Source: a virus. Taken from it: a stretch of 22,781 bases of DNA. Of the stretch, positions 799 through 19,869 are shown one piece after another. Each line of letters opens with the position of its first letter. The stretch's first letter is position 1. Location: IMG/VR virus record IMGVR_UViG_3300017779_000170, positions 1 to 22,781 of that record; one strand, given 5' to 3'. Below the pieces are notes generated by a model. The model worked only from the letters and a program-made list of their open reading frames with translations, was not told the origin of the DNA and did not search any database. A program made the translations under genes and the position numbers.

Positions 799-1077
799 AT
801 GATGAACTTAAATAAAATTGAAAAACGACTCCAGCTACACGCTGAAACAGAAATTAAAGAAATTGTAGAAAATTTTATGAATGACATTGACACTAATTTA
901 TTAGACAAATATGGGGGTGCAAGTGATTATGTACATTTAAAACTTAATGACTCTGTGTATTCTCAAAGTATTCAAAAATTTGAAACAATGTTAATCTGTA
1001 TGTTGAAAAAAAGACATTTAGAGGCAATGGTAGAGGTAAAATCAAAAGAATTAATCAAAAAACTAGATTTAATATGA
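799..1077 (+). CDS. Hypothetical helical protein (92 aa)
   Basis: The product is a charged, probably all-helical protein of 92 residues that starts MMNLNKIEKRLQLHAETEI. Two adjacent ATGs (799 and 802) could both serve as start. The C-terminus is a basic helix rich in Lys and Leu. The stop overlaps the next start as ATGA, suggesting translational coupling. I recognise no family. The alternation of Glu, Lys and hydrophobic residues would fit a small helical bundle or coiled coil. Confidence 0.6.
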   Translation: MMNLNKIEKRLQLHAETEIKEIVENFMNDIDTNLLDKYGGASDYVHLKLNDSVYSQSIQKFETMLICMLKKRHLEAMVEVKSKELIKKLDLI

Positions 1078-1322
1078 AAGAAAAAAGAATAGATCAAAAA
1101 CTAAAAGTTACCAGCATAAGGTACTTTGAAACTCGCAGGGGTTTGGGTTATGAATGCAAAACCAATTACAAAAGTGTTGTCATTTGGAATGACGGCAATG
1201 GTGGTGGGACGTTCATTGAGCCTAATAAAGGTATATTTCCGTTCAGAGATTTGACCGATTCCCAGCTGGAAAATCTAATTGACAACTACGAATTTAATAA
1301 TAAAAAATTTAAAACTATATAA
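1074..1322 (+). CDS. Small phage protein with GYECKTNY / NDGNGGGTF motifs (82 aa)
   Basis: The protein has a basic N-terminus, then RRGLGYECKTN and IWNDGNGGGTFIEP, a turn-rich beta-type core like that of other small phage proteins, although I cannot name the family. It ends in EFNNKKFKTI. The DNA coding for that tail, including the stop and the next start, is almost identical to the end of the next gene (see the repeats at 1290 and 1510). The start overlaps the preceding stop (ATGA). Function unknown. Confidence 0.65.
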   Translation: MKEKRIDQKLKVTSIRYFETRRGLGYECKTNYKSVVIWNDGNGGGTFIEPNKGIFPFRDLTDSQLENLIDNYEFNNKKFKTI

Positions 1323-1326
1323 TATG
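1290..1326 (+). repeat. 37-bp gene-junction direct repeat, copy 1
   Basis: These 37 bp cover the last ten codons and stop of the gene at 1074 and the start codon of the next gene. They match 1510-1546 at 36 of 37 positions (A1307 versus C1527). The copies lie 220 bp apart, exactly one gene plus its one-base gap. Confidence 0.9.
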
Positions 1327-1542
1327 AAAAACAATTTTCAACTAAAAGCAACAAGAGTTTCTGATTTTGATATGGTAGGCGATGAACATTATGGGGATGT
1401 ACCTTATGGAGTTTGTTTAGATGTATATTGTCAATGTGGAGAATTTTTAGAATGTGGGACGGATTGGTCTTATTTTAAAACCGAAAAAGAAGCAGAGGAT
1501 TTCTGCGAAGAATTTAATAATAAAAACTTTAAAACTATATAA
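1324..1542 (+). CDS. Small Cys-rich hypothetical protein (72 aa)
   Basis: I chose the ATG at 1324, not an upstream ATG at 1279 inside the previous gene, because it has the same leader (AACTATATAATATG) as the next gene. The 72-residue product has four cysteines in a C-x4-C-x-C-x5-C pattern (around VCLDVYCQCGEFLEC), which could bind a metal but is not a zinc-finger type I know. It ends in EFNNKNFKTI, nearly the same tail as the preceding protein. Long direct repeats flank the gene, so it looks like an inserted or duplicated cassette. Function unknown. Confidence 0.65.
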   Translation: MKNNFQLKATRVSDFDMVGDEHYGDVPYGVCLDVYCQCGEFLECGTDWSYFKTEKEAEDFCEEFNNKNFKTI

Positions 1543-1546
1543 TATG
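1510..1546 (+). repeat. 37-bp gene-junction direct repeat, copy 2
   Basis: This is the second copy of the junction at 1290-1326, with one mismatch. It covers the tail of the gene at 1324 and the start codon of the gene at 1544. Recombination between the copies would remove exactly one gene and leave both neighbours intact. Confidence 0.9.
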
Positions 1547-2188
1547 GCAAATCATTGTTGGAATTGGATACAATTCTCAGGTAAAGGAAAAAAGGGGTGT
1601 AAATCTCTTAACAAATTAGTTGATAGGTTGAAAACCTATGAAGAAACAGATTATTTAGCAGAATGGGGAGATTATATACTCGACAAGGGTAAGATAGGAG
1701 ATTCTATTGAAATTTTAAACAAAAGGCACGACAATGATTGTGGATATGTATATGGCTCAAGGTGGTTTGATTTCAATATTGATGACGATATACAAGGAGA
1801 ACACCCTATCATCACAATATTGGGGGATTCTGCTTGGTCGCCTATGTGTCCACTTGTGGGAGAGATATGTAAGCATTACGGCTTAAGCGGAGAAATTGAA
1901 TATGAAGAGCCAGGATGCGACTTTGCTGGTCGCCAAGCGTTTAATGATAAAGGCATACTAATTGAAAATATAGATGTAACCTATCACGAATGGCGTTACA
2001 TAGACGATAGAAGATATTGGTTTGAAGATGTGCGTTATGGCTACGAGGGTTGTGATGATGAAGATTGCACCATAGAGCAATTAACAAAGGATCATTCCTA
2101 CGCTTCTGAATCAGACATTAAAGAACTAAGAGAATTAATACTTGATATGAACGCTGAAACCTTAAAAGAACAACAAAATGAATCATAA
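1544..2188 (+). CDS. Api92/DUF1281-like protein (ferredoxin-like fold, 214 aa)
   Basis: The start at 1544 follows the repeated AACTATATAATATG leader; the frame extends further upstream but would overlap the previous gene. The N-terminus MANHCWNWIQFSG resembles the MPNWCxNxLxxxG opening of the Api92/YubB (DUF1281) family. The middle carries GDSAWSPMCPLVGEICKHY and then EYEEPGCDFAGR, close to the family's W-x-PP...Y-x-E-x-G-x-x-FxG signature. The remainder is acidic. Proteins of this family are common on phages, plasmids and integrative elements, and their role is not settled. The stop overlaps the next start by 11 bp. The family call is by eye and moderately firm; the function is unknown. Confidence 0.7.
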   Translation: MANHCWNWIQFSGKGKKGCKSLNKLVDRLKTYEETDYLAEWGDYILDKGKIGDSIEILNKRHDNDCGYVYGSRWFDFNIDDDIQGEHPIITILGDSAWSPMCPLVGEICKHYGLSGEIEYEEPGCDFAGRQAFNDKGILIENIDVTYHEWRYIDDRRYWFEDVRYGYEGCDDEDCTIEQLTKDHSYASESDIKELRELILDMNAETLKEQQNES

Positions 2189-3261: not shown

Positions 3262-3372
3262 ATGTACTACAATCTATTAAATCATCTTAATCAAAAACCC
3301 AGCGAATTAGAGCTAATTCATATGGAAAAATGCACTTTAATTATTAACCAAAGCCACCAAGAGAATGAGTAA
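3262..3372 (+). CDS. Small hypothetical protein (36 aa)
   Basis: A 36-codon ORF after a 44-bp AT-rich gap, opening MYYNLLNHLNQKPSELELIH. It begins the chain of overlapping ORFs that runs to 5729: its stop lies 8 bp inside the next start. The product is probably two short helices. Support comes from position and overlap only. Confidence 0.4.
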   Translation: MYYNLLNHLNQKPSELELIHMEKCTLIINQSHQENE

Positions 3373-4004: not shown

Positions 4005-4425
4005 AAAAAAATTTTCTTTAAACGAAATATTTAATCAAGCAATCAACAAGACTAATGCAGTTGTTACCAATATGCCCCTTGGCATAAATGCTATATACTT
4101 AGGTATTAAGATTCAAAAGTTTGAAGATCAAATTCAAATATTAGATTTAAATAAAGGCGGAAGCTACTATAAGTTAATTGACCCAGCTCATTATCAAGTT
4201 TTTTATGATTATGGCTGGAAAATTGGTTGTTTGAGAATGGCTATCTATAATTGTGTTTACAAGCTAGAGCTGGTTGAAGAAAGAATAAAAACTGAAGTCA
4301 ATACTAGAAAAAATGACAAGCATATACAGAATTTAAAAAACAAAAGAGAAAAACTTTTACAAAAACATTACGCATACAATAATAAATTAAATCAAATACA
4401 AAAACAAAATGAAAAACTACTTTGA
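3997..4425 (+). CDS. Hypothetical protein with C-terminal coiled coil (142 aa)
   Basis: The start at 3997 overlaps the DnaA-like gene by 8 bp. The N-terminal part mixes hydrophobic and polar residues (ATNMPLGINAIYLG-like strand region). Residues from about 75 on are a long helix rich in Lys, Glu, Asn and Gln that should form a coiled coil (NKREKLLQKHYAYNNKLNQI). Nine A residues directly follow the first two codons. The gene overlaps the annealing-protein gene by 17 bp, so it may be a partner of the recombination set, but no known family is recognised. Confidence 0.65.
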   Translation: MIKKKFSLNEIFNQAINKTNAVVTNMPLGINAIYLGIKIQKFEDQIQILDLNKGGSYYKLIDPAHYQVFYDYGWKIGCLRMAIYNCVYKLELVEERIKTEVNTRKNDKHIQNLKNKREKLLQKHYAYNNKLNQIQKQNEKLL

Positions 4426-4999
4426 AGAATTGGCAAAAGTCAATGTTAAGGACAAAATCGAAAAAAAAGGAAACTTTAATTATTTGTCTTGGGCAAACGC
4501 CTGGGCAATGATTAAAATGAAATACCCAAATACTCAGCGAATAGTTTATGAATCAGAGCATACGGGTTTAAATTTTTTTACTGACGGCACTACTGCATAT
4601 GTTAAGGTTGGGGTAACTGTGAATGGAATTGAGCATATTGATTATTTACCGATTATGGACTATAGAAACAAAAGCATAACTATTGATAAGATTACGTCTA
4701 TGGACGTAAACACTGCAATACAAAGATCTACTGCTAAGGCAGTTGCTATGCATGGTTTAGGCTTATCTCTATGGGTAGGAGAGGATATAACACAAGTCAT
4801 CACGCCCAGCGCTCCAATCATTAAAAAAACCAGCACTACATATACTTTAAAAATAGGAGATGATAATTGGACAAAAGTATTGACTTATGTTTCTAAAAAC
4901 AAAAAAATAGGTTTAGAGCAAATTGTCAAAAACCTATCTACAAAATACAAAGTAACTAAATCGGTTAAGGATGCTATTAATAAAAAAATAAATGAGTAA
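4409..4999 (+). CDS. DUF1071-type single-strand annealing protein (196 aa)
   Basis: This matches the DUF1071 group of phage recombinases, which are Rad52/ERF-like annealing proteins. The diagnostic parts are NFNYLSWANAWAMIKMKYP (22-40), the strand block around V65-V71, PIMDYRNKSI (81-90), and DVNTAIQRSTAKAVAMHGLG (99-118) followed by LSLWVGED (119-126). Such proteins coat ssDNA and pair complementary strands without ATP. The C-terminal 60 residues are basic and variable, perhaps for partner binding. The gene overlaps the exonuclease gene by 8 bp, giving the classical exonuclease/annealing-protein pair (as in RecET or lambda Red) in the order annealing protein then nuclease. Confidence 0.85.
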   Translation: MKNYFEELAKVNVKDKIEKKGNFNYLSWANAWAMIKMKYPNTQRIVYESEHTGLNFFTDGTTAYVKVGVTVNGIEHIDYLPIMDYRNKSITIDKITSMDVNTAIQRSTAKAVAMHGLGLSLWVGEDITQVITPSAPIIKKTSTTYTLKIGDDNWTKVLTYVSKNKKIGLEQIVKNLSTKYKVTKSVKDAINKKINE

Positions 5000-5729
5000 A
5001 GATATTTTAGATAAATTAAAGGATGATAAAAATTATTATGGAGATTTTGGTAAACAATTCTTATCTAATTCGGACATAATAAAGCTACTAAAAGACCCAT
5101 CGTCTTTTAGACAACCACAAGAACAGACAAAGCCAATGCTTGAGGGGAGATATTTTCACACAAAAATGCTTGAGCCTGACAAATTAGATGAGTTTACAAT
5201 TTTAGATGTATCTTCAAGAACTACAAAGATTTTTAAAGAACTTGATGAAGACGTAAAACCTAATGTATTACTACAAAAAGAAAAAGATCATTTAGATTTT
5301 TTAGTAAACAAGATGTCATCAAATATGGAGTTGTGTGATTTAATTTACGCAGAAAACAATGAGTTTGAAGTTCCAGGACTTTGTGAAATTATGAGCGAAA
5401 AATGGAAAGGTAAAGCTGATATTATAAATAAAGTTGATGATTTAATTATTGACATCAAAACAAGTTCTGATATCGATAAATTTTTGTACAGTGCAAAATC
5501 ATATAATTATGATTCACAAGCATATATATACCAGCGTATGTTTAATAGACCCTTAATTTTTATAGTAATAGATAAACGCAACGGAAGATTAAAAATAGCA
5601 GACTGCTCTCCTTCATTTATTGAGTCGGGTAAAGAAAAAGTTGAAAAAGCGATTGATGTTTATCATAAATTTTTTAGTGATGAAAAAACTGAAGACATTA
5701 ATTCTTACATTTTTAAAGAAACATTATAG
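4992..5729 (+). CDS. PD-(D/E)XK exonuclease, RecE/DUF3799-like (245 aa)
   Basis: The protein shows the core of RecE/lambda-exonuclease-like nucleases. LEGRYFHTKML (50-60) contains the G-x-x-H helix. WKGKADIIN (138-146) carries the metal-binding Asp143. LIIDIKTSS (151-159) carries the catalytic D154-x-K156. YDSQAYIYQ (173-181) is the Q-motif helix. It would degrade one strand of duplex DNA to expose ssDNA for the annealing protein encoded just upstream. The length is typical of the single-domain nuclease. The AxGxxxH/D/DxK/Q set is complete, so activity is expected. Confidence 0.85.
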   Translation: MSKDILDKLKDDKNYYGDFGKQFLSNSDIIKLLKDPSSFRQPQEQTKPMLEGRYFHTKMLEPDKLDEFTILDVSSRTTKIFKELDEDVKPNVLLQKEKDHLDFLVNKMSSNMELCDLIYAENNEFEVPGLCEIMSEKWKGKADIINKVDDLIIDIKTSSDIDKFLYSAKSYNYDSQAYIYQRMFNRPLIFIVIDKRNGRLKIADCSPSFIESGKEKVEKAIDVYHKFFSDEKTEDINSYIFKETL

Positions 5730-6360: not shown

Positions 6361-8772
6361 ATGGACATAACCATATTCCAGGATATAAAAAAAACATCCC
6401 AACCTTTCTATAGAAGTGTAAACCTAGTGCTTAAAAGAATACAAGATGGGGCATCTAAAGATATAGTTAAAAAAATTAGAGCAGAAAAAGATAAGAGCAA
6501 TAGAAACATATTAAAGCAAAAACTTCCAGCCATTTGCTTCAGCGGTAAATTTACCAAAAGGAGCGATAAAGCTATTAAAGAGCATAGCGGATTAATTTGT
6601 TTAGATTTTGATGGTTACAAAACTAATCGTGATATGTTGCAAGAAAAAGAAAAACTATCAAAGGATAAGTTTATTTATTCTGTATTTATATCTCCCAGCG
6701 GTAATGGTCTTAAGGCCTTGGTTAAAATACCTACTTCAACTGAAAATCATAAAAATTATTTTCTCAGCCTTCAAACTTATTTTAATAGCGAATACTTTGA
6801 TAAGACTTGCAAAAACATATCAAGAGTTTGCTATGAATCATATGACCCCTTAATTTATGTTAACGCTCAGTCGAGTTTATGGGATAAAATTCAAGAGCAA
6901 GAGTTTACTGAGGTTACAAAGCACTCAGACATACCTACTATTCCCGTAACGGATGAAAACAAAATAGTAGATATTTTAGTTAAATGGTGGCAAAAAAAAT
7001 ACCCAATGATGGAGGGAGAGCGAAATAATAATGTTTATGTTTTAGCATCTGCATTTAATGATTTTGGTATTAATCAATCTTTAGCTGAATTTGTTTTAGG
7101 TAATTACCAAACTAAGTCATTTAATCAAACAGAAATAAAAAGAACTATACAATCAGCATACGCTCAAAAGCAAAACTTTGGCACGAAATACTATGAAGAT
7201 GCTGATAGAGTCAATAACATAAAGATTAAATTAAAACGAGGCGTACCAAAAAAAGAAATTAGATCTCAATTAGTCGAGTCAGATATTGAGGTCAGCACAG
7301 TTGACAATGTATTGGCTCGTTTAGATGAAGAGAATGCCAACAATCAATTTTGGACTAAGAACGATAAAGGTGTAATAAAAATTGTACATATTTTATTTAA
7401 ACAGTTTTTAGAAGAAAACGGATTCTACAAATTTAATCCTGAAGGAAGTAAAAATTATGTGTTTGTAAAAGTAACTAACAACCTTATTGACCATACTTCT
7501 GAAAAGGAAATAAAAGATTTTATTTTAAACTATCTTTTAGAAATAGACGACTTAAGTGTTTACAATTATTTTGCTGAACATACTAGGTATTTCAGAGAGG
7601 AGTTTTTAACACTTTTATCATCAATCGCAGTGTACTTTATTGAAGACACCAAATCTAGCGCCTATTTATATTATAAAAATTGTGCCGTTAAGGTAACACA
7701 CGATGAGGTTGTGAAAATTGATTACTTAGATTTAGGTGGTTATGTATGGAAAGATCATGTAATAGACAGAGAGTTTAGTAGTTGTGATAGTGGAGATTGC
7801 GATTATAAGCAATTTGTTTCAAACATTTGCGGAAAAATAGAAAGCAGAACAAATTCTATGCGTTCTACTATTGGCTATCTCTTACACGCTTGGAAAAATT
7901 TATCATATTGTCCAGCTACAATACTTAATGATGAAGTAATATCAGATAATCCAGAGGGAGGGACGGGCAAAGGTTTGTTTATGAACGCTCTATCTCATAT
8001 GAAAAAATTAGTTGTCATAGATGGCAAGTCATTTAATTTTGAAAAGAGTTTTGCATACCAGCTGGTATCTGCGGATACACAAATATTATGTTTTGATGAT
8101 GTAAAAAAACATTTTGACTTTGAAAGATTATTTAGTGTAGTAACTGAGGGATTAACTTTAGAAAAGAAAAATAAAGATGCAATCAAGATACCATTTAGTA
8201 AAAGCCCTAAAGTAACTATAACCACAAATTATGCCATAAAAGGTAAAGGTTCATCATTTGAAAGAAGAAAGTGGGAGTTAGAATTAACACAGTTCTATAC
8301 TAAGGACTTTACACCTTTGAAAGAATTTGGCAAACTTATGTTTGGAGAGTGGGATGACTTAGAGTGGTGTAGGTTTGACAACTATATGATAGAGTGCCTA
8401 CAAATGTATATGAAGTTTGGTTTGATTAAAAGTGAATTTGTAAACTTACGAATCAGACAACTTTCGGCAGAAACTTGCCACGAGTTTTTAGAGTGGAGCG
8501 GATTGATTGGCGAAGGCGGACAAAACGAGAAACTAAAGCCAGGTGGTAAAATTTATAAAAACGATTTGTATTTAGACTTTTGCGATGACAATCCTGACTT
8601 TGCGCCTAAGTCAAAATTTACCGTATCAAGAACAAGATATTATAAATGGCTGGTTGCATACTCGGTATACAAATATAATTGTAACCCCGAAGAAGGGCGT
8701 GATGCTGGAGGAAGATGGGTGAGATTTAGAAATAAACACGAATTAGAAACAAACGGCTCACTTGAATTTTAA
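6361..8772 (+). CDS. Primase-helicase: BT4734/VirE-N-type primase domain plus SF3-like helicase (803 aa)
   Basis: A multidomain replication protein. Residues about 1-185 match the BT4734/VirE-N-like primase-polymerase domain, with the acidic D82-F-D84 metal site in GLICLDFDG and SPSGNGLKALVKI after it. Residues about 200-270 look like a PriCT-type helical domain. The C-terminal half is a superfamily 3-like helicase: Walker A EGGTGKG (532-538), Walker B ILCFDD (575-580), a TTN sensor (621-623) and ERRKW (634-638) as likely arginine finger. It would make primers and unwind DNA at the fork. The start follows ATCAACATAAAATG. The stop overlaps the next start as TAATG. This domain order is well known in Bacteroidota elements and their phages. 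Confidence 0.85.
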   Translation: MDITIFQDIKKTSQPFYRSVNLVLKRIQDGASKDIVKKIRAEKDKSNRNILKQKLPAICFSGKFTKRSDKAIKEHSGLICLDFDGYKTNRDMLQEKEKLSKDKFIYSVFISPSGNGLKALVKIPTSTENHKNYFLSLQTYFNSEYFDKTCKNISRVCYESYDPLIYVNAQSSLWDKIQEQEFTEVTKHSDIPTIPVTDENKIVDILVKWWQKKYPMMEGERNNNVYVLASAFNDFGINQSLAEFVLGNYQTKSFNQTEIKRTIQSAYAQKQNFGTKYYEDADRVNNIKIKLKRGVPKKEIRSQLVESDIEVSTVDNVLARLDEENANNQFWTKNDKGVIKIVHILFKQFLEENGFYKFNPEGSKNYVFVKVTNNLIDHTSEKEIKDFILNYLLEIDDLSVYNYFAEHTRYFREEFLTLLSSIAVYFIEDTKSSAYLYYKNCAVKVTHDEVVKIDYLDLGGYVWKDHVIDREFSSCDSGDCDYKQFVSNICGKIESRTNSMRSTIGYLLHAWKNLSYCPATILNDEVISDNPEGGTGKGLFMNALSHMKKLVVIDGKSFNFEKSFAYQLVSADTQILCFDDVKKHFDFERLFSVVTEGLTLEKKNKDAIKIPFSKSPKVTITTNYAIKGKGSSFERRKWELELTQFYTKDFTPLKEFGKLMFGEWDDLEWCRFDNYMIECLQMYMKFGLIKSEFVNLRIRQLSAETCHEFLEWSGLIGEGGQNEKLKPGGKIYKNDLYLDFCDDNPDFAPKSKFTVSRTRYYKWLVAYSVYKYNCNPEEGRDAGGRWVRFRNKHELETNGSLEF

Positions 8773-10001
8773 TGCAGTTTAGGGAATATCAAAAAGAAAT
8801 AATAAATAAAGCATTGCCTCTGTTGAAAAAAGATAAATTTGTTTATCTTGCGATGGAGGTTAGAACCGGAAAGACGCTTACGAGCTTGGGTGTTAGTATG
8901 CTTCTGCCGGTTCAGAACCTCTTGTTTATTACCAAAAAAAAAGCAATTAGTAGTGTTCAAGACGACTACAAACTATTAAACCCATCATATAATCTTACGA
9001 CTATAAATTATGAATCCCTACATAAGGTAGCCCCAAGGGGATGGGATATGGTTGTGTGTGATGAGGCTCATGGCCTAGGGGCGTTTCCCAAAAGAAACAA
9101 AAGATCAAAAACGGTCAAGTCTTTAATATCTGAGAACAATCCTTATGTAATTTTTTTGTCTGGCACACCTACGCCAGAATCTTATTCTCAAATGTATCAT
9201 CAAGTTTCTGTATTAAACAAAAATCCTTTCTCGGAGTATAAAACATTTTATAAGTTTGCTAAAAAATTTGTAAACATAAAGCAACGTAAAATTAATAGCC
9301 TTCTTATAAATGATTATAGTCAAGGCTTAGACTCTATTATAGACCAAATGAAACCTCACACAATTTCTTACACTCAAAAAGAGGCTGGGTTTAAAATAAA
9401 AACAAAAGAACACACCCTTGTAGTTGAAATGTCTGAGCTAACTTATAAGTTAACTAATAAATTAAAAAAACATTTGGTGGTTGAAGGCAACCCAAATATA
9501 ATTTTAGCAGACACTCCCGTAAAACTTATGATGAAGCTTCACCAAATGTATTCAGGTACAGTAAAGTTTGAGTCGGGTGAATCAATGGTGCTAGACTACT
9601 CTAAGGCAGAGTATATTTATAAAAAATTTAAGCATAAAAAAATAGGAATATTTTATAAATTTAAAGAAGAATACAATGCGTTGAAAGAAGTTTATGGAAC
9701 ACAACTTTGCAACACACTTGAAGAATTTTGTAACTCAAATAAAAGTATAGCACTACAAATTGTTAGTGGTAGAGAGGGAATATCACTAAAGGATGCTGAC
9801 TGCTTAGTGTATTACAATATAGATTTTTCAGCAACCAGCTATTGGCAGTCTAGAGATAGAATGACTACCAAAGAGAGAACAGAAAGTGATGTGTATTGGG
9901 TGTTTGCAAGGGGTGGTATTGAAAGCGAAATTTATAAAGCTGTTACCAAAAAGAAAGATTATACATTAAAACATTTTAAAAGAGATTTATTAACTTTATA
10001 A
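8772..10001 (+). CDS. SNF2/DEAD-like SF2 helicase (409 aa)
   Basis: The start shares its A with the primase stop (TAATG), so the two are probably translated in step. Superfamily 2 motifs are in order: REYQ (4-7, Q-like), Walker A EVRTGKT (29-35), VVCDEAHG (94-101, DEAH box), FLSGTPTPE (128-136, motif III), VSGREGISLKDADCLVYYN (motif V region) and QSRDR (359-363, motif VI). The layout resembles compact phage SNF2-like helicases. It may remodel replication or recombination intermediates, or DNA-bound proteins. It lacks accessory domains. A lysine run (TKKKAISS) is coded by a stretch of ten As, a possible slippery site. Confidence 0.85.
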   Translation: MQFREYQKEIINKALPLLKKDKFVYLAMEVRTGKTLTSLGVSMLLPVQNLLFITKKKAISSVQDDYKLLNPSYNLTTINYESLHKVAPRGWDMVVCDEAHGLGAFPKRNKRSKTVKSLISENNPYVIFLSGTPTPESYSQMYHQVSVLNKNPFSEYKTFYKFAKKFVNIKQRKINSLLINDYSQGLDSIIDQMKPHTISYTQKEAGFKIKTKEHTLVVEMSELTYKLTNKLKKHLVVEGNPNIILADTPVKLMMKLHQMYSGTVKFESGESMVLDYSKAEYIYKKFKHKKIGIFYKFKEEYNALKEVYGTQLCNTLEEFCNSNKSIALQIVSGREGISLKDADCLVYYNIDFSATSYWQSRDRMTTKERTESDVYWVFARGGIESEIYKAVTKKKDYTLKHFKRDLLTL

Positions 10002-12307: not shown

Positions 12308-12544
12308 GTGAAGGGCCTTGCATTTTGCCCAATGAATTTCAGCACACTTGCTGTAGTCTTCTAATTTTTCAAAATACTCCCTAACATAATCATAAACCCC
12401 GTCTTCCATAGGCACAACTGGAATTGTTGGATTAAAAACAAAGTGAACCTCCTCATCCCTATCTAGCATTTGATGGAAAGTCTCTTTCCCAGTTAATATC
12501 TTATAACTGTTCATCATACATTTATGTTGGTTAAAACTATTCAT
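12299..12544 (-). CDS. Hypothetical protein at the end of the virion gene string (81 aa)
   Basis: The ATG shares its A with the stop of the 2441-residue gene (TAATG), so translation is probably coupled. The protein contains HFVFNPTIPVVP and a Tyr/Glu-rich helix followed by CAEIHWAKCKAL; two Cys and nearby His could bind metal, but no known finger is evident. I do not recognise the family. It closes the minus-strand unit, overlapping the end of the plus-strand phosphoesterase by 9 bp with no terminator in between. It may be a virion or assembly factor, judged only by its position. Confidence 0.7.
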   Translation of the reverse strand: MNSFNQHKCMMNSYKILTGKETFHQMLDRDEEVHFVFNPTIPVVPMEDGVYDYVREYFEKLEDYSKCAEIHWAKCKALHLI

Positions 12545-15500
12545 TAGTATTCACTTGGGTCAAAGTCATCTTCTTCAAAGTATTCATCTTCAAAAGAATC
12601 GTTTGCTTGTTCTCTCAGCTCTCTTCTGTATTCAGAGGGGTCTTCTGTTTTTAGATACTCTAAATATTCTCTTCTCTCTTTTTCTCTTTTTGATCTTTTT
12701 CTATTTTTAACATCATCTGCGAAGAAGTCTTTAACAACAGCTCGTCTTATGTCTTTATAAAAAGGTACTAAACCGGAATTACCTAAAAGCTCCAATACCA
12801 TTCTGTTGGTTAATTCTTCTTTATTTTTCTCTCTACTTTCTTTTGTTGCATTATTAATCGACCTAAAACCCAGACTAGTCATTCGTTCCAAAGTTTTTAT
12901 TATCGGCCCAAACGGCCCAGCTAAAACTCCTACCGCCGTCTTAGTAAGGCCTTTATCTTCTATTTGATCTAAACTTAGCTGGTTATATACTATTGAGTGC
13001 TTATAAGCGTCATAATCTCCCTCTCTTAAACCATCCAATGCTTTTTCATTAAACTGCTCTATCAACATAGATGGAACTAAATTAGGAATATTACCCATAC
13101 TTTTTCTAGTCATAAGACTAAGCATAGTACCTACGACTTGTCGTGTTATAATATCTTCAATATCAGACTCATCCTCGGATTCATCATCAACACCAAATAG
13201 TTCTTGATCAAATGCTTGACTTAATACTGTATACAGAATAGGATACATAGTCATACGCATACCTACACCTGCTAAAATACCTAAAGCTTGAGTTCGACTT
13301 ATTTCTCCTTTTCTTTGTAAAGCTCCTACAGCCATTCTTGCGGTGGCATACTCAAATAAACTAAAGTTTGCCATAAATTTATTAGCAGCCCTGTAAGCAT
13401 TAACCGCGCCTCCGCCGCCTTTACCTGTTGTTCGATACTGATTTTTAATTACACTATCAAAAGGATTTTTTGATGTACCTATCATGGTAGCGGTCTGGTC
13501 AGCTTTTTTAGTTGCTTTTTCTACGGCAGCTTTATATTTATCCCCTAAGTATTTACTCTCACCTCTCCCTATATCTTTAAGATCTTTAGAAGTTAGCTTG
13601 ATGCCTGTTTCAGCCTCAAATGTTGTAGCAAACTTACCATACCACATTGGTATACTTAATGATTTATCTGGAGAAGATATAATTGTTGATGCTATTTTAT
13701 CTACAACAGCTGCGGTTTGTTTAACCCCCATTCTTAATATCACTTGCATTATGTTAGCGACATGGCTACGAGCAGTTCCGTCTGAAGGTGTACTCTGTAA
13801 AAACCCGGTTACATCTGCAAAACGAGAAGACAAACTTCTTGTTTCAAAAAGTCGTGTTGTCATTCTAGAGCCTAAATTATTAAGTATGTCAGTTCCTTCT
13901 TTTCTACTTAAAAAAGATAATTTTCCAAATTTCGTAAATCCTGTCATGGCGGCTTTAGGGTCAGCTATAATCATTGACATATTTGACTGAATCTCCGACA
14001 CCATTCTTGTAACTGAACCAAGGATGGCTTGATACGCAATTCTTTTTACTTTATTACCTATCGAACCTAAAAAACTTACATCTCTTTGTGTCTCTCCAAA
14101 TGTGACTTCTAAGATTTCAGAAACTGATTTATCTAAAGCTGATACCGCTGCTTTCTGTGCGTCAGTACTATTAGGGTCTGCCTGTATTTCAGCAGTGACC
14201 TTGTTAATTGTTTTCTTGACCCTTCTAACCTCGTTGGTCATAAAATAATCTAAAGCTACACCTGACGCCCCCTTTTCTAATGAATAAAAAGGGTCAAAAC
14301 TTATAGGCTTTGCTCCTGATGTTCTAGCTTGGTTAGCCCCACCTTTAGTAGATGCTTGAGAATATTGTTCACCTCTTGTGTTTAAGTCATTTGTCTGTTG
14401 AATGTCTGACATTAAAACTACTCGGTGAGAGTATGAGTTATAAAGCTCAACTCTATTACCTCTCAAAACGGCTGAAGTAAATTTAGACAAGGGCGCTAAC
14501 TTAGCGTTTTCAGTGTCTAATATGTTTAAAGCAGCCTTTTCGTTTTTAGTTAAACTTTTTTCTAGTTTATCTAAACTGATTTCTCCATCTACTGTAAACT
14601 GGTCAGATAATTCTTGAATTATTTTTCCATCTAAAGCTGTTAGTCTGCCCGTACCTTTTTTACTATTTATATCTTTAAGAGTGGCCTCAATAAATTCTAC
14701 TGGATTAGGGGCTTTAGGATTAGCTTCTCCATCCACCATATTATTTAAATACTCCCTTGTTAGTTGTATAAGCCTGAGTTTATATCCTTTTTTTACAACT
14801 TTATTATCCGTATTTCTGCCTCCTAAAATTTTTCTAACTTTATTTACGCCGTCTTTTTCTAATAATGCTCTTGCTGAATCTGACTTTGCTCTCATTTTAC
14901 CAACAAACACATTGTAGCTTTCAAATGTTTTAGCCAGTCTTCCAAAAGTGTTATCATAAATAGTGGTGCTGTTTAAGTTTCCAAAAGCGTTATCGACACT
15001 TGTGGCTACTGATGATCTTATTTTATCTAAAATTAAATTTTTACCAGAACGAGAATTTGTTAGAGCTATCTTTATTGATGAGCTTATGTTTTTAAAGTGT
15101 TTTAAAATACCATTTTTAGTTACTTTTTTCATCACGCTTGTAACTGGCTTAGAATCTCTGGTACTTAAAATGTCATTTAATATGTTGTTTGTGTCTACAT
15201 TTACTACACCCTGAGTTAAGTTTTGCATAACCACTCTAAGAGTTTCAAGTTTAGAATAATCAAACACACCATCTTTTTCTTGAATTAGAGCGCCTATGTC
15301 TTCCTTTGTGATTTTAGCAAACTGCTTGGCTATTTCTATATCATTATCATCATTAAGCTTACTTAAGTCAGGCTTCTTGCTTTTAATTTCTTTTATGGCT
15401 TTTGTAACATCATACTCCTTAGTTTTTCTAGGCTTTTTGTCTTTCGCTTTTTTATCTTTTATGTTAATTTCTGTGCCTAACTTTAAAGATTCATCTATAG

Positions 15501-18500
15501 AATTTAAAATATCTAAGCCTACTTCAGTATCACGACCTATGTTTGTAAACTCTAGTTTCCCTGGTTTACCATAAAATTCAAGAAGCTGCACAGCTGCATC
15601 CAGTTTGTTTAGTGGAATATTACTTAGCTCTGTATTTGCTAAAGCTATAAGAGTATTTACTAAAGCATCATTGTTAGCTCCAAATTTTCCCTTTTTAATA
15701 TTATATTTAACACCTCGACCTCTTTTATTCTTAATAGCGTTTTTAATTCTAACCAACTTAGTATTTATAGTAGCGTCATTCATTACTTTAGTAACATATT
15801 CTACTGTGCTATCAACTTGCGAATCTTTAGAAAAATCAGTTCTTAAAATTCTATTTGACATTGCTAGTGCTTGAGAAGATTTAATAATACCTCTAGACTT
15901 CAGACCTGTAATTTTATCTAACAAACTTTTTTGAGCAGCTTTGTAAGCATTTTCAGATTCCCTTGCTGCCTTAGCCTCTAGTTTTATCTGTGTTTTTAAT
16001 CCATCAGAATCTATAATTAGGCTTGTTTTTTTCTTTTTGCCTTGGGTAATTCGTTTAGCCGAGGGGCCTCTTTTTTTACCAAATACACCAGGCTCTGAAG
16101 CTTGTTTCTGAAGTTGAGTTTGAGATTGTTTTTGAACATCTACATTAGGTGATCTGTTTGGGTCAATTTTATTTACTAAACTTATATTAGCTTCAGTTGC
16201 TGGCATTCCTGTCAGCTGTGTAAATTTTTCTCTTAAACCAATTAATGTGTTTGATTCTGCGTCTAGCTTTAGAGCATTCATGGCATCTCTGTTAGGATTT
16301 TGCTTAATAAACTCTACCACCTGGTCAGGAGTAATTTCTACATCTACATCAATCTGATCGGGGTCAGCAATATAAGATAAATACCCATCTTCTAGACTCA
16401 CTCCTCCTCTTTCTTTAGATGCTATCCATATACTTGAAACACCACTTTCTCTAGGCGACAACCCGGTTACTCGTTTCCAGCTTTCTGGAGTAAACTTTAC
16501 AACAGGGGATGCACTTTTTTTATCTCTAGATATTAAGCCTTCTAATCCAAACTCTACATCTCTAGATTCTAATTGTGTTTGCTCTTCAGTTTTAACACGA
16601 GTTATAGCGTCCGCTACCTCTTTGGCGTTCTCGGAAGTTTCTATTATTCGTTGATTAACCTCGCTTTCGTTTGTTAAACCCTGTAAATCAGCCGGCTTAC
16701 CATCGTTTACATCTATTACTGTTTTTAAAATAAACTTCTCAACCTTCTTCGGTATTTTTTTTAAGGGTCTACCTGTTTTTCTGTTAATAGCTTGTACAGT
16801 TCCGTCTTCATTTAGCTGAACATCTACAGTTCTACTGCCAGGAACTCTAAATACTTGAGGCCCTCCCTTACGTTGAGATGGAGGTATGGTTTGAAAACTT
16901 TTAGGAGTTGTTGGAGTTTTAACTAAAACTGGCAACTCTAAATCTATAGTGTAAGTTTTTTTACCCCTTTTAGATCCTCGCCTTTTTATTTTAACGTCAA
17001 TCCCTGGATATGCTTTTTTTATTTTATCAACCTCAGCTTCAGCCTTAGCTTTGTCGTCCGTTTGAAAAGCACTAAAAGCCGCTTCGTTACCCTTCTCTTT
17101 TACAGATTGTTGCGTTGCATCGCTATACTTTGTTGTTTTTGTAACAACATTACCATCAGCATCTACCTTTTCACTCAAGGTTTTAGACTTATTATATGTT
17201 TTTAAACCACCTATAGATATAGTGGTTACCTCTATTACTTCTGCTCCGTCTGGTAGGGCGTTTTCCGCCTCAGTAATCATGTTCTTGAAAGCATCTCCGG
17301 TAGACTCCATTTTAGCGGTAAACTGATTTGTGGGTTTACCGTTTTCGTAAACTCTTGTGAAGCCAACAAAATTAGCGGAATCGCCACTGCTACTTATAAT
17401 AACATCTAACTCGCCTGTCTGTGGATTATTATATTTAGCCGTTTGTACACCCTTAGAGTCTGGACTTGTTATGTCAGAGATAACAGCTTTACCATAAGGT
17501 AGTTTTTTATCAGTATGGGTTTTACCAAATATTTTTGGAGCTGCATCTATTCTAGCTTTTTTATCTACTTGCGTTTCCGCCTCCTCGGTAGCTTGAACTG
17601 CCTCTTGGGTTTCAACTTCTTGGCTACCCGTTTCGGCAGCTTCTTGCTGGATGTTACCTTCTCCCACTCCTTCGCCATCTTGGGTAGATTCTTGTACATC
17701 CAAGCTCTCTGTGCTTGACTTTTGAATGGCATCTTTTTTCTCTTTAATTAATAATTTTTTTACATTCTCAAACTCTTGGTCTGTATATGTGTCTTTATCT
17801 ATTCTATCTAGTACCTCCTGGTTAGTTACTGATGCTTCAGCTTGTGCCTGTGCCTCAGCTTCTGCTAAAGCTGTTTCTGCTGATCTATCTCTGGATTTTT
17901 CTCTATCCATGAGAGCTTTTTGCATATCACTTATTTGACGTTGAGTAGGGTCTTCAATACCATTGTTAGCGAGTTCTTTTTTAGCATCACCTTTTGTTAC
18001 AGTAATAACTTCGTTAAAAGTATTTCCGTCCTGCTCTACCGTAACCTCCTCCGTCATGACTTGACTATAGTCGTCTACAATTTCAGATATCCTTTGGTCT
18101 ATCTGTCTTTTTCTAAGCTTTGTTGTTTCAGACGCACTATCTGGTAATTTACTTCTTTCTATTTGTAGTTTAATTATTTCACTTTTAGCCTCGCCCTGTG
18201 GTATCATAGGGTAGGTTTTTTCTATCTCTAAAGCAAATTGAGACTCTGCTTTTATATCAGTAACAACTGCCTTTAAGTCTGGATCATTAGTTATATCTAT
18301 ATCCATTTTAGCAATCTGGTCAGGAGTTGCTGTTCCTATGGTTGCTAATATATAATCCTTAGTTACAAAGTCTTTACCAAGTCTGTACTGTGGTGTAATA
18401 AATGCACCACGCGCCAAAGTTATTGGAGCTGAACCAGCGCCAGCAAACCCCTCTAAACCTATCTCAGCAATATCCATTTCCTGCCCAGCTAAAAGTCTTG

Positions 18501-19869
18501 CGGTTGCCTCACCAAGGCTACCCCCACCAATCTCAACACCTAAACCACTGGCTACTGGAGCTATTCTTTTTCCGTATCTGGCTGCAACTGCAATTCCTTT
18601 TTGAACAGCGTTTTTAGTTACAGCTCCTTTACCAGCTTTAGCTAACTGTTTAGCAGTTCCTTTGGCTATTGCTTTACCAGTAGTACCTACTATTTTACCT
18701 GCAACACCAGCTGTTACTGCGTCAATCATACCTATAGCAAGACCTCTGGTTGCCGCCTTGTTTCTTATTCTCTGTAATGCCTCTGGGTCTTCAAGAACCA
18801 GTCTTATACCTTCTGCATCAAACTTACCTCCTTTCGCCTCAACTTCTTCTTTCATAAATTCAGTATAAGACATACCGAACTCTAACGCTAAAGATGCACC
18901 ACCAAATGCGCCACCAACCGCTCCTGCGCCTGCGCCAAATAAAGCACCTGGCCCCGATACGGCTGTTAGAGTAGCACCTGCCGCTGCACCTGTCGATGCT
19001 CCTACCCCGGCAGCCGCAGCTGACGCAGGATTAAGCATAGATGAAAAAGAATCAATTAATAATTCTGGAGCAATAGATAAATTTGCGCCGAAGCCTAGCA
19101 TAAATCCTAAAAATCCACCACCATTTTGCTCATATATTTTTTGAAAACTTTTCATTTCATCTGACTGCACAACACCCTCAGATTTTTTTACGGCCGCTAT
19201 GTATTCTTGTAGTTCTGCATCGGTTATGTTTTTGCCCTTGGCGTACAAAGCAATAGCATCATCTACTGATTGTCCTTTGGTAAATCCATTGCCAATAGCA
19301 CGATACATATCTCCCCAAAAATCAGCACTAAGAACGCCCAAAATAGGCTTGTCATCAAACGCCCAATCCAAAGCTTGACCTAACCAGCTTTCTTCAAGCC
19401 ATGTTTCGTCTTCTATCTGTGGAATATTAAATTCTTCAGCTTCGTTTATTGCCTCATCTGTGCCAGATCGGTACAACTCAGTGTCAAAAATCTCTATTTC
19501 GTTTGGGTCATCAACACCTTCTACCACTTCCACATCCTCTTCTATGTTTGGTGTAACAGGAGGGGGTTGGTTTAATGAAGGGTCAGGAGTTTCGACTGGT
19601 GAAGTATCCAAGGATCCATCCTCCACCGGAGGTATTGTAGTATCTGCATCCGTATCTTCCGTTGGAGAAGTGCCAGGTAATTCTTCCTCTTTTTTTTTTA
19701 AGCCTAAAACATTTGACGCTTCTAGCTCAGCTACATCTTTAAAAGTTCCTTCTTCTAAATAATCAAACAGCCCGTCATAACCTAGAGTTGGAGCCATCTC
19801 TAAAAACTCCTCTAAACTTTTAAATGCTCCATCTATAGCATAGTCATATAAGTCTTCTAATTCAAACAT
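12544..19869 (-). CDS. Giant internal virion / DNA-ejection protein (2441 aa), gp16-position
   Basis: This single frame is one third of the window. N-terminus: two copies of an about 19-residue motif (residues 6-24 and 33-51: L-[YF]-DY-x3-G-x-FK). Residues 60-130 are acidic and Pro-rich. Residues about 250-480 are unusually rich in Ala and Gly with hydrophobic helices, as in membrane-inserting ejection proteins. Residues about 650-770 are Glu/Gln/Ala-rich. The remainder is a long basic helical region. A hydrophobic stretch lies near 2193-2220 and a very acidic end (FEEDDFDPSEY) closes the protein. T7 gp16, in the corresponding place, has 1318 residues and an N-terminal transglycosylase; no such motif was found here. 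It probably forms part of the ejection conduit. A polyvalent-type protein with unseen enzymatic domains is the alternative. Confidence 0.75.
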   Translation of the reverse strand: MFELEDLYDYAIDGAFKSLEEFLEMAPTLGYDGLFDYLEEGTFKDVAELEASNVLGLKKKEEELPGTSPTEDTDADTTIPPVEDGSLDTSPVETPDPSLNQPPPVTPNIEEDVEVVEGVDDPNEIEIFDTELYRSGTDEAINEAEEFNIPQIEDETWLEESWLGQALDWAFDDKPILGVLSADFWGDMYRAIGNGFTKGQSVDDAIALYAKGKNITDAELQEYIAAVKKSEGVVQSDEMKSFQKIYEQNGGGFLGFMLGFGANLSIAPELLIDSFSSMLNPASAAAAGVGASTGAAAGATLTAVSGPGALFGAGAGAVGGAFGGASLALEFGMSYTEFMKEEVEAKGGKFDAEGIRLVLEDPEALQRIRNKAATRGLAIGMIDAVTAGVAGKIVGTTGKAIAKGTAKQLAKAGKGAVTKNAVQKGIAVAARYGKRIAPVASGLGVEIGGGSLGEATARLLAGQEMDIAEIGLEGFAGAGSAPITLARGAFITPQYRLGKDFVTKDYILATIGTATPDQIAKMDIDITNDPDLKAVVTDIKAESQFALEIEKTYPMIPQGEAKSEIIKLQIERSKLPDSASETTKLRKRQIDQRISEIVDDYSQVMTEEVTVEQDGNTFNEVITVTKGDAKKELANNGIEDPTQRQISDMQKALMDREKSRDRSAETALAEAEAQAQAEASVTNQEVLDRIDKDTYTDQEFENVKKLLIKEKKDAIQKSSTESLDVQESTQDGEGVGEGNIQQEAAETGSQEVETQEAVQATEEAETQVDKKARIDAAPKIFGKTHTDKKLPYGKAVISDITSPDSKGVQTAKYNNPQTGELDVIISSSGDSANFVGFTRVYENGKPTNQFTAKMESTGDAFKNMITEAENALPDGAEVIEVTTISIGGLKTYNKSKTLSEKVDADGNVVTKTTKYSDATQQSVKEKGNEAAFSAFQTDDKAKAEAEVDKIKKAYPGIDVKIKRRGSKRGKKTYTIDLELPVLVKTPTTPKSFQTIPPSQRKGGPQVFRVPGSRTVDVQLNEDGTVQAINRKTGRPLKKIPKKVEKFILKTVIDVNDGKPADLQGLTNESEVNQRIIETSENAKEVADAITRVKTEEQTQLESRDVEFGLEGLISRDKKSASPVVKFTPESWKRVTGLSPRESGVSSIWIASKERGGVSLEDGYLSYIADPDQIDVDVEITPDQVVEFIKQNPNRDAMNALKLDAESNTLIGLREKFTQLTGMPATEANISLVNKIDPNRSPNVDVQKQSQTQLQKQASEPGVFGKKRGPSAKRITQGKKKKTSLIIDSDGLKTQIKLEAKAARESENAYKAAQKSLLDKITGLKSRGIIKSSQALAMSNRILRTDFSKDSQVDSTVEYVTKVMNDATINTKLVRIKNAIKNKRGRGVKYNIKKGKFGANNDALVNTLIALANTELSNIPLNKLDAAVQLLEFYGKPGKLEFTNIGRDTEVGLDILNSIDESLKLGTEINIKDKKAKDKKPRKTKEYDVTKAIKEIKSKKPDLSKLNDDNDIEIAKQFAKITKEDIGALIQEKDGVFDYSKLETLRVVMQNLTQGVVNVDTNNILNDILSTRDSKPVTSVMKKVTKNGILKHFKNISSSIKIALTNSRSGKNLILDKIRSSVATSVDNAFGNLNSTTIYDNTFGRLAKTFESYNVFVGKMRAKSDSARALLEKDGVNKVRKILGGRNTDNKVVKKGYKLRLIQLTREYLNNMVDGEANPKAPNPVEFIEATLKDINSKKGTGRLTALDGKIIQELSDQFTVDGEISLDKLEKSLTKNEKAALNILDTENAKLAPLSKFTSAVLRGNRVELYNSYSHRVVLMSDIQQTNDLNTRGEQYSQASTKGGANQARTSGAKPISFDPFYSLEKGASGVALDYFMTNEVRRVKKTINKVTAEIQADPNSTDAQKAAVSALDKSVSEILEVTFGETQRDVSFLGSIGNKVKRIAYQAILGSVTRMVSEIQSNMSMIIADPKAAMTGFTKFGKLSFLSRKEGTDILNNLGSRMTTRLFETRSLSSRFADVTGFLQSTPSDGTARSHVANIMQVILRMGVKQTAAVVDKIASTIISSPDKSLSIPMWYGKFATTFEAETGIKLTSKDLKDIGRGESKYLGDKYKAAVEKATKKADQTATMIGTSKNPFDSVIKNQYRTTGKGGGGAVNAYRAANKFMANFSLFEYATARMAVGALQRKGEISRTQALGILAGVGMRMTMYPILYTVLSQAFDQELFGVDDESEDESDIEDIITRQVVGTMLSLMTRKSMGNIPNLVPSMLIEQFNEKALDGLREGDYDAYKHSIVYNQLSLDQIEDKGLTKTAVGVLAGPFGPIIKTLERMTSLGFRSINNATKESREKNKEELTNRMVLELLGNSGLVPFYKDIRRAVVKDFFADDVKNRKRSKREKERREYLEYLKTEDPSEYRRELREQANDSFEDEYFEEDDFDPSEY

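Follow-up and report, generated by a model that had tools for sequence, protein, structure and literature searches.

How phages acquire and lose their many small accessory genes has mostly been deduced from old, blurred mosaics in which, to our knowledge, conserved sequences at the borders are seldom found. The locus described here raises the question of whether a short sequence at a stop/start junction can mark the borders of a single gene that is exchanged between phages. The window, as we call the whole stretch analysed, comprises 22,781 nt of IMG/VR virus record IMGVR_UViG_3300017779_000170 (positions 1 to 22,781). In it, a small gene, here called B, stands between two direct repeats, each of which runs across a gene boundary from the end of one gene into the start codon of its neighbour. 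The host of the window phage is presumably a flavobacterium, since the relatives of its primase-helicase include Flavobacterium, Polaribacter and Cellulophaga phages. Elsewhere in the window, positions 12544-19869 of the - strand hold one ORF of 2441 aa, probably encoding a very large virion protein.

The direct repeat around gene B

The locus contains the following features; L005 and L015 are contigs of related phages.

1074..1322, + strand: gene A, 82 aa; its last ten codons (EFNNKKFKTI) lie inside repeat copy 1
1290..1326, + strand: 37-bp direct repeat, copy 1, from sequence comparison and simulation
1311..1326, + strand: junction motif, copy 1, with the stop of A (TAA 1320-1322) and the start of B (ATG 1324-1326)
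1324..1542, + strand: gene B, 72 aa, probable motif-bounded cassette, from comparison with L005 and L015
1510..1546, + strand: 37-bp direct repeat, copy 2, made up of B's native C-terminal tail plus the junction motif
1531..1546, + strand: junction motif, copy 2, with the stop of B (TAA 1540-1542) and the start of C (ATG 1544-1546)
1544..2188, + strand: gene C, 214 aa, with an Api92-like DUF1281_C domain; it begins at motif copy 2

The two repeat copies agree at 36 of 37 bases (sole mismatch A1307/C1527), with a start-to-start spacing of 220 bp and a longest perfect run of 19 bp. Each consists of ten C-terminal codons (EFNNK[K/N]FKTI), the TAA stop, one T and the following ATG, which confirms the repeat and its content as the earlier note had described them. 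Three contigs from other samples (L002, L003 and L004), 99.2-99.8% identical to the window, carry both copies, again 220 bp apart, and the repeat is thus not an assembly accident of a single contig.

The repeat has two components. Its 3' 16 bp, the junction motif, recur elsewhere, and its 5' 21 bp correspond to the protein tail of B, copied onto A. It spans 37 rather than 16 bp because A bears the C-terminal tail of B, which is missing from other A homologues; these end in YENVKTI in L005, L014 and L037, and in DYEFQQTASKK in L015. As B homologues elsewhere share related tails (YNKK, FNNK) and A homologues end otherwise, we infer from these sequences that the original end of A was exchanged for the tail of B in the window lineage, during the insertion of B or through later conversion.

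Neither A nor B belongs to a known family in Pfam or PHROGs. The predicted structure of B has four strands and one helix, and a fold search gave no confident structural match; the top PDB match, T7 Gp1.2, was too weak (E 0.25) to be used as a structural relative. A homologue of B was not found in annotated phage records. Genome contigs yielded one relative, in a MAG labelled Aliivibrio, which is likely a misbinned phage contig.

Gene B in related phages

The window and L005 share only about 450-570 bp. DNA identity between them is 66% in the body of A, 93% in the body of B and 36/37 in the second repeat, followed by 5/25; motif copy 2 is the right edge of the similarity. B is 92% identical between the two phages, with 6% synonymous-codon differences, counted at codons for identical residues, versus 49% for A. 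The sister phage L015 can be aligned with the window over 8 kb, at 77% identity, and its B differs from that of the window by 42% of synonymous codons. Its gene order is different: L015 has A, a homologue of the gene at 799-1077, C and B, and the motif is absent from its junctions of these genes. Homologues of C in L015, L030 and L168 are preceded by a different gene.

The simplest reading of these comparisons is that B entered the window lineage recently, as a motif-bounded unit, from an L005-type phage. A donor of this type, and with it the direction of transfer towards the window lineage, is proposed because L005-type contigs have many motif copies and the other relatives of the window have none. 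From our analyses, we consider it quite probable that B is a motif-bounded single-gene accessory cassette, exchanged between phages at dispersed motif copies and derived from an L005-type phage. The proposal of a one-gene cassette between repeats at stop/start junctions, made in the earlier note, is borne out by the comparison with L005.

Three other readings were weighed against this one. A high A+T content and the similar ends of the two proteins would fit a repeat that had arisen by chance or from a conserved protein tail in AT-rich DNA. We give this explanation almost no credence: among matches with at most one mismatch at offsets of 20-1000, the longest in the window is 37 bp and the maximum in 100 second-order Markov simulations is 19 bp, on which a chance repeat was rejected. 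A conserved tail alone, an objection that the earlier note had raised itself, was rejected as well, since A homologues elsewhere end differently; the sole BLASTP match between A and B is short, C-terminal and carried by the tail, and the copies use the same codon at all ten positions with identical residues, stop included (p ~0.015 for codon usage alone). The near-identity of the copies, their spacing and a geometry that preserves ORFs would also suit a mutable module, by which populations gain or lose B through recombination between the repeats. This is improbable. In viral contigs, the 34-bp core of the repeat was confined to L002, L003 and L004 (two copies each, 220 bp apart) and L005 (one copy), and neither a single-copy nor a tandem form of the repeat unit was found. 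The longest perfect run is, moreover, shorter than the minimal efficient pairing segment of 23-27 bp published for Red-beta (PMC3945230). Ongoing deletion or duplication of B, which had been suspected, found no support among viral contigs: all near-identical contigs have the same arrangement, and the two-copy unit is fixed in the window lineage. Finally, A and B may have moved jointly from an L005-type phage, with A evolving faster and the left edge of the transfer lying elsewhere than at the first motif. In both phages A is the immediate left neighbour of B, and the window aligns to L005 without a break across the two genes, but the contrast in synonymous-codon differences between A and B speaks against a joint transfer, as does the finding that A of the window is equally far from the A of L005 and that of L015. 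We regard a joint transfer as distinctly unlikely, and retain the transfer of B as a single-gene cassette.

The junction motif and similarity breakpoints

The junction motif, AAAACTATATAATATG, is 16 bp long and its final ATG is a start codon. The 13-mer ACTATATAATATG has nine exact copies in L005, all on the coding strand and each placed right at an ORF's start codon; exact counts elsewhere, on one strand, are four in L026, four in L172, two in L037 and two in the window, and simulated sequences contain at most 0.02 copies on average. With up to two mismatches, the whole L005 record (a 17.8 kb contig) has 14 motif sites, all on one strand, and a reversed control pattern has none. ORFs start at nearly all motif copies in the family contigs, a term restricted here to multi-copy or cassette-sharing contigs. 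Most single-copy matches to the 16-mer lie in unrelated contigs and were discarded as probable chance matches or other conserved starts (e.g. the MSNLDAIMAQ family). Read in three frames, the motif stops two and lets the third pass through. The motif-bearing phages are uncultivated and probably infect Flavobacteria.

Swaps of whole genes with intact ORFs, as the earlier note had suggested for such junctions, are seen among the relatives, where they were read from sequence comparison of uncultivated contigs. L026 and L173 differ by one gene (93 aa in L026, 61 aa in L173), which is internal to both contigs and flanked left and right by sequence of 99.2-99.9% identity. The left edge of this swap is at the motif, with a weakly matching copy in L026 (TAAAACCATACAACATG), and at the right edge the motif is present in L026 only. 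To the right of a motif, L121 and L026 share 5770 bp at 99.93% identity. To its left, L121 has a different gene, which resembles genes of group-II contigs; this junction is 196 bp from the contig end. The tail of the L026 gene matches L030 at 98.6% over 148 bp, ending at the motif, with backbones at about 76-77%.

Across 23 contigs, 31 right and 20 left alignment ends (not independent events) are located at a motif copy in each of the two genomes, with 0.05 and 0.06 expected for randomly placed motifs. These ends fall on 70 motif sites, and 437 other ORF starts have 32 right and 37 left, which makes the rate per site several times higher at the motif. Similarity edges end 0-4 bp past it. The upstream neighbour is conserved in 18% of the comparisons made at motif junctions, compared with 34% at other junctions in the same regions and 55% in the backbone. 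The clustering of breakpoints at the motif is no proof of a pairing site, because selection also favours recombination at gene starts.

A functional start signal kept by selection ahead of accessory genes, be it a translation initiation site or a phage-specific promoter or regulator site, would likewise gather breakpoints, as only whole genes together with their signal would survive, without any pairing at the motif itself; we give this explanation somewhat less than an even chance. The motif keeps a constant position relative to the start codon, whereas the preceding stop is 1, 11 or roughly 10-130 nt away. Starts in Bacteroidetes have an A at -3, and A-rich starts are expected in hosts that do not use Shine-Dalgarno sequences (PMC6847099); the motif goes beyond this ordinary context, since the remaining gene starts of these phages are just loosely A-rich. 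The Start-Associated Sequences (SAS/ESAS) of cluster K mycobacteriophages (Pope et al. 2011, PMC3203893) are a published precedent with the same logic. A start signal alone, however, leaves the position of the similarity edges and the tail duplication in A unexplained, many genes of the same accessory arrays have no motif, and the motif is just moderately better conserved vertically than its flanks (0.90 versus 0.78 and 0.83; n=9, with few comparable junctions). Neither window junction folds better than shuffles, and no + strand terminator was found in window positions 1000-1800. Both repeat copies contain TTAATA-18-TATAAT, but sites resembling promoters are no commoner than in shuffles, and Bacteroidetes promoters differ. 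In the reading proposed for the cassette, the motif would additionally act as a start signal. A start signal reused by recombination and a motif kept for recombining are compatible, and either may apply, the two being equally possible from the sequence.

Other elements were observed near the motif. Truncated tRNA-like elements of ~40 nt, with an acceptor stem and T-arm only and called by neither ARAGORN nor Rfam, are located on the reverse strand of L082 (near 159, 933 and 2152 in the numbering of that strand) and L032 (1865), and in L166 (4504 and 5694), L167 (10735) and L005 (about 3320-3365). Their acceptor stems vary and stay complementary (TACTGGA/TCCAGTA, GGATAG/CTATCC, GAGCCA/TGGCTC, GAGTCA/TGACTC), and most of the elements directly precede a small hairpin and the junction motif. 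A strict scan of these loci found 11, and shuffles gave 0; within phage operons they may act as RNase P-type signals for processing. In L026 (1132-1206), L032 (3791-3865, - strand) and L166 (6532-6606), this position ahead of hairpin and motif is taken by a full tRNA-Arg(TCT) gene. Both tRNAs and tRNA-like elements precede the motif in group-I contigs only.

The variable cassette array has a fixed left anchor, a DUF932 gene (1085-2020 in L005, also in seven other contigs); in these eight contigs the motif follows 66-87 bp later, and then mostly different genes. One cassette family, NNKLIAEF...QYHSSWDWLMPV, has two diverged copies in L005 (3950-4312 and 5640-5966) and is also present in L026 (1594-1875), L068, L072, L137 and L172, in many arrays with different neighbours.

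Proposed exchange and relation to known systems

The annealing recombinase that the earlier note attributed to the phage is accompanied in the window by a neighbouring exonuclease.

4409..4999, + strand: Sak-type single-strand annealing protein, candidate recombinase (PF06378, phrog_659)
4992..5729, + strand: RecE/exonuclease VIII-like nuclease, candidate partner of the annealing protein (phrog_412, PF12684)

L005 has a RecE-like/YqaJ exonuclease beside a 177-aa gene. The motif, with its upstream stop and downstream start, is scattered over the accessory arrays of several phage lineages. In the mechanism that we propose, co-infection of one cell by two motif-bearing phages would lead to exchange between motif copies. 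Such exchange would replace, insert or reorder whole genes, and ORFs would stay intact because the motif closes two of the three reading frames and provides a start codon. The recombination machinery would pair on motif identity, with the Sak protein and the exonuclease annealing the short identities; partial similarity of adjacent gene ends or starts may help, and products would be selected because they are intact. Phage Rad52-like recombinases use short, diverged identities (PMC3945230). Exchange at the motif alone is probably rare or reliant on another process, since its 16-19 bp of identity are below the segment length given above for Red-beta. That the phages possess a dedicated cassette-exchange system, with a universal stop/start joint, a fixed entry at the DUF932 gene, several participating lineages and a common pool of small genes, is conceivable but doubtful; if true, single-gene exchange would almost always be productive.

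SAS are found in about 11-19 copies per genome and have the consensus GGGATAGGAGCCC with a Shine-Dalgarno core; their function was left open by the authors (PMC3203893). Like SAS, the motif is short, asymmetric, in one orientation, located before ATG starts of unrelated gene families in the non-structural region, and sometimes includes the upstream stop codon. Copy numbers compare as nine exact and up to 14 with mismatches in L005 and two in the window, in incomplete contigs. Unlike SAS, the motif has an unrelated sequence without a Shine-Dalgarno core, often sits in a 1-bp intergenic gap rather than one of more than 50 bp, and is here tied to recombination breakpoints. As its sequence differs from the SAS consensus, we do not file it as SAS; it just works like one.

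T4-type phages reportedly carry PeSL (promoter-early stem-loop) cassettes, said to have been described by Arbiol in 2010 and Comeau in 2014. As cited in PMC4503421, PeSL is a dispersed element of regulatory appearance at gene junctions, through which the small genes of a variable region are shuffled. The motif is similar in its link to small-gene shuffling, as a breakpoint association only, and differs in that no stem-loop lies between A, B and C and no promoter is established; a small hairpin precedes some group-I motif copies only. In the boundary-sequence model of phage mosaicism, homologous exchange takes place at short conserved sequences at module borders (PMC3029335). Here too, similarity breakpoints coincide with a short sequence common to both parents, but one motif serves many borders, within and between lineages and down to single genes. 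Integron cassettes likewise consist of single genes with a common joint and a fixed left anchor, here the DUF932 gene of the eight group-I contigs; in contrast, the present element is 16 bp long, lies before the start codon, and has no attC-like structure at the window junctions. As for an integrase, none of the integron type was identified; the motif-rich L005 encodes a tyrosine-recombinase-like protein at 7953-8903 (phrog_1 integrase, weak Pfam match). Because it fails the sequence definition of SAS and the stem-loop of PeSL, the motif is a variant new relative to both, within a limited open-access literature search, in which SAS came closest as an element and PeSL shuffling and the boundary-sequence model as processes.

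Here a single short motif marks the borders, and recent one-gene swaps can be dated via synonymous sites. The same gene families recur in differing orders across lineages. With this, the boundary-sequence idea becomes testable in a Bacteroidetes-type phage system. The motif also gives a sequence with which to search for the common gene pool, and this pool may include genes for host takeover or anti-defence.
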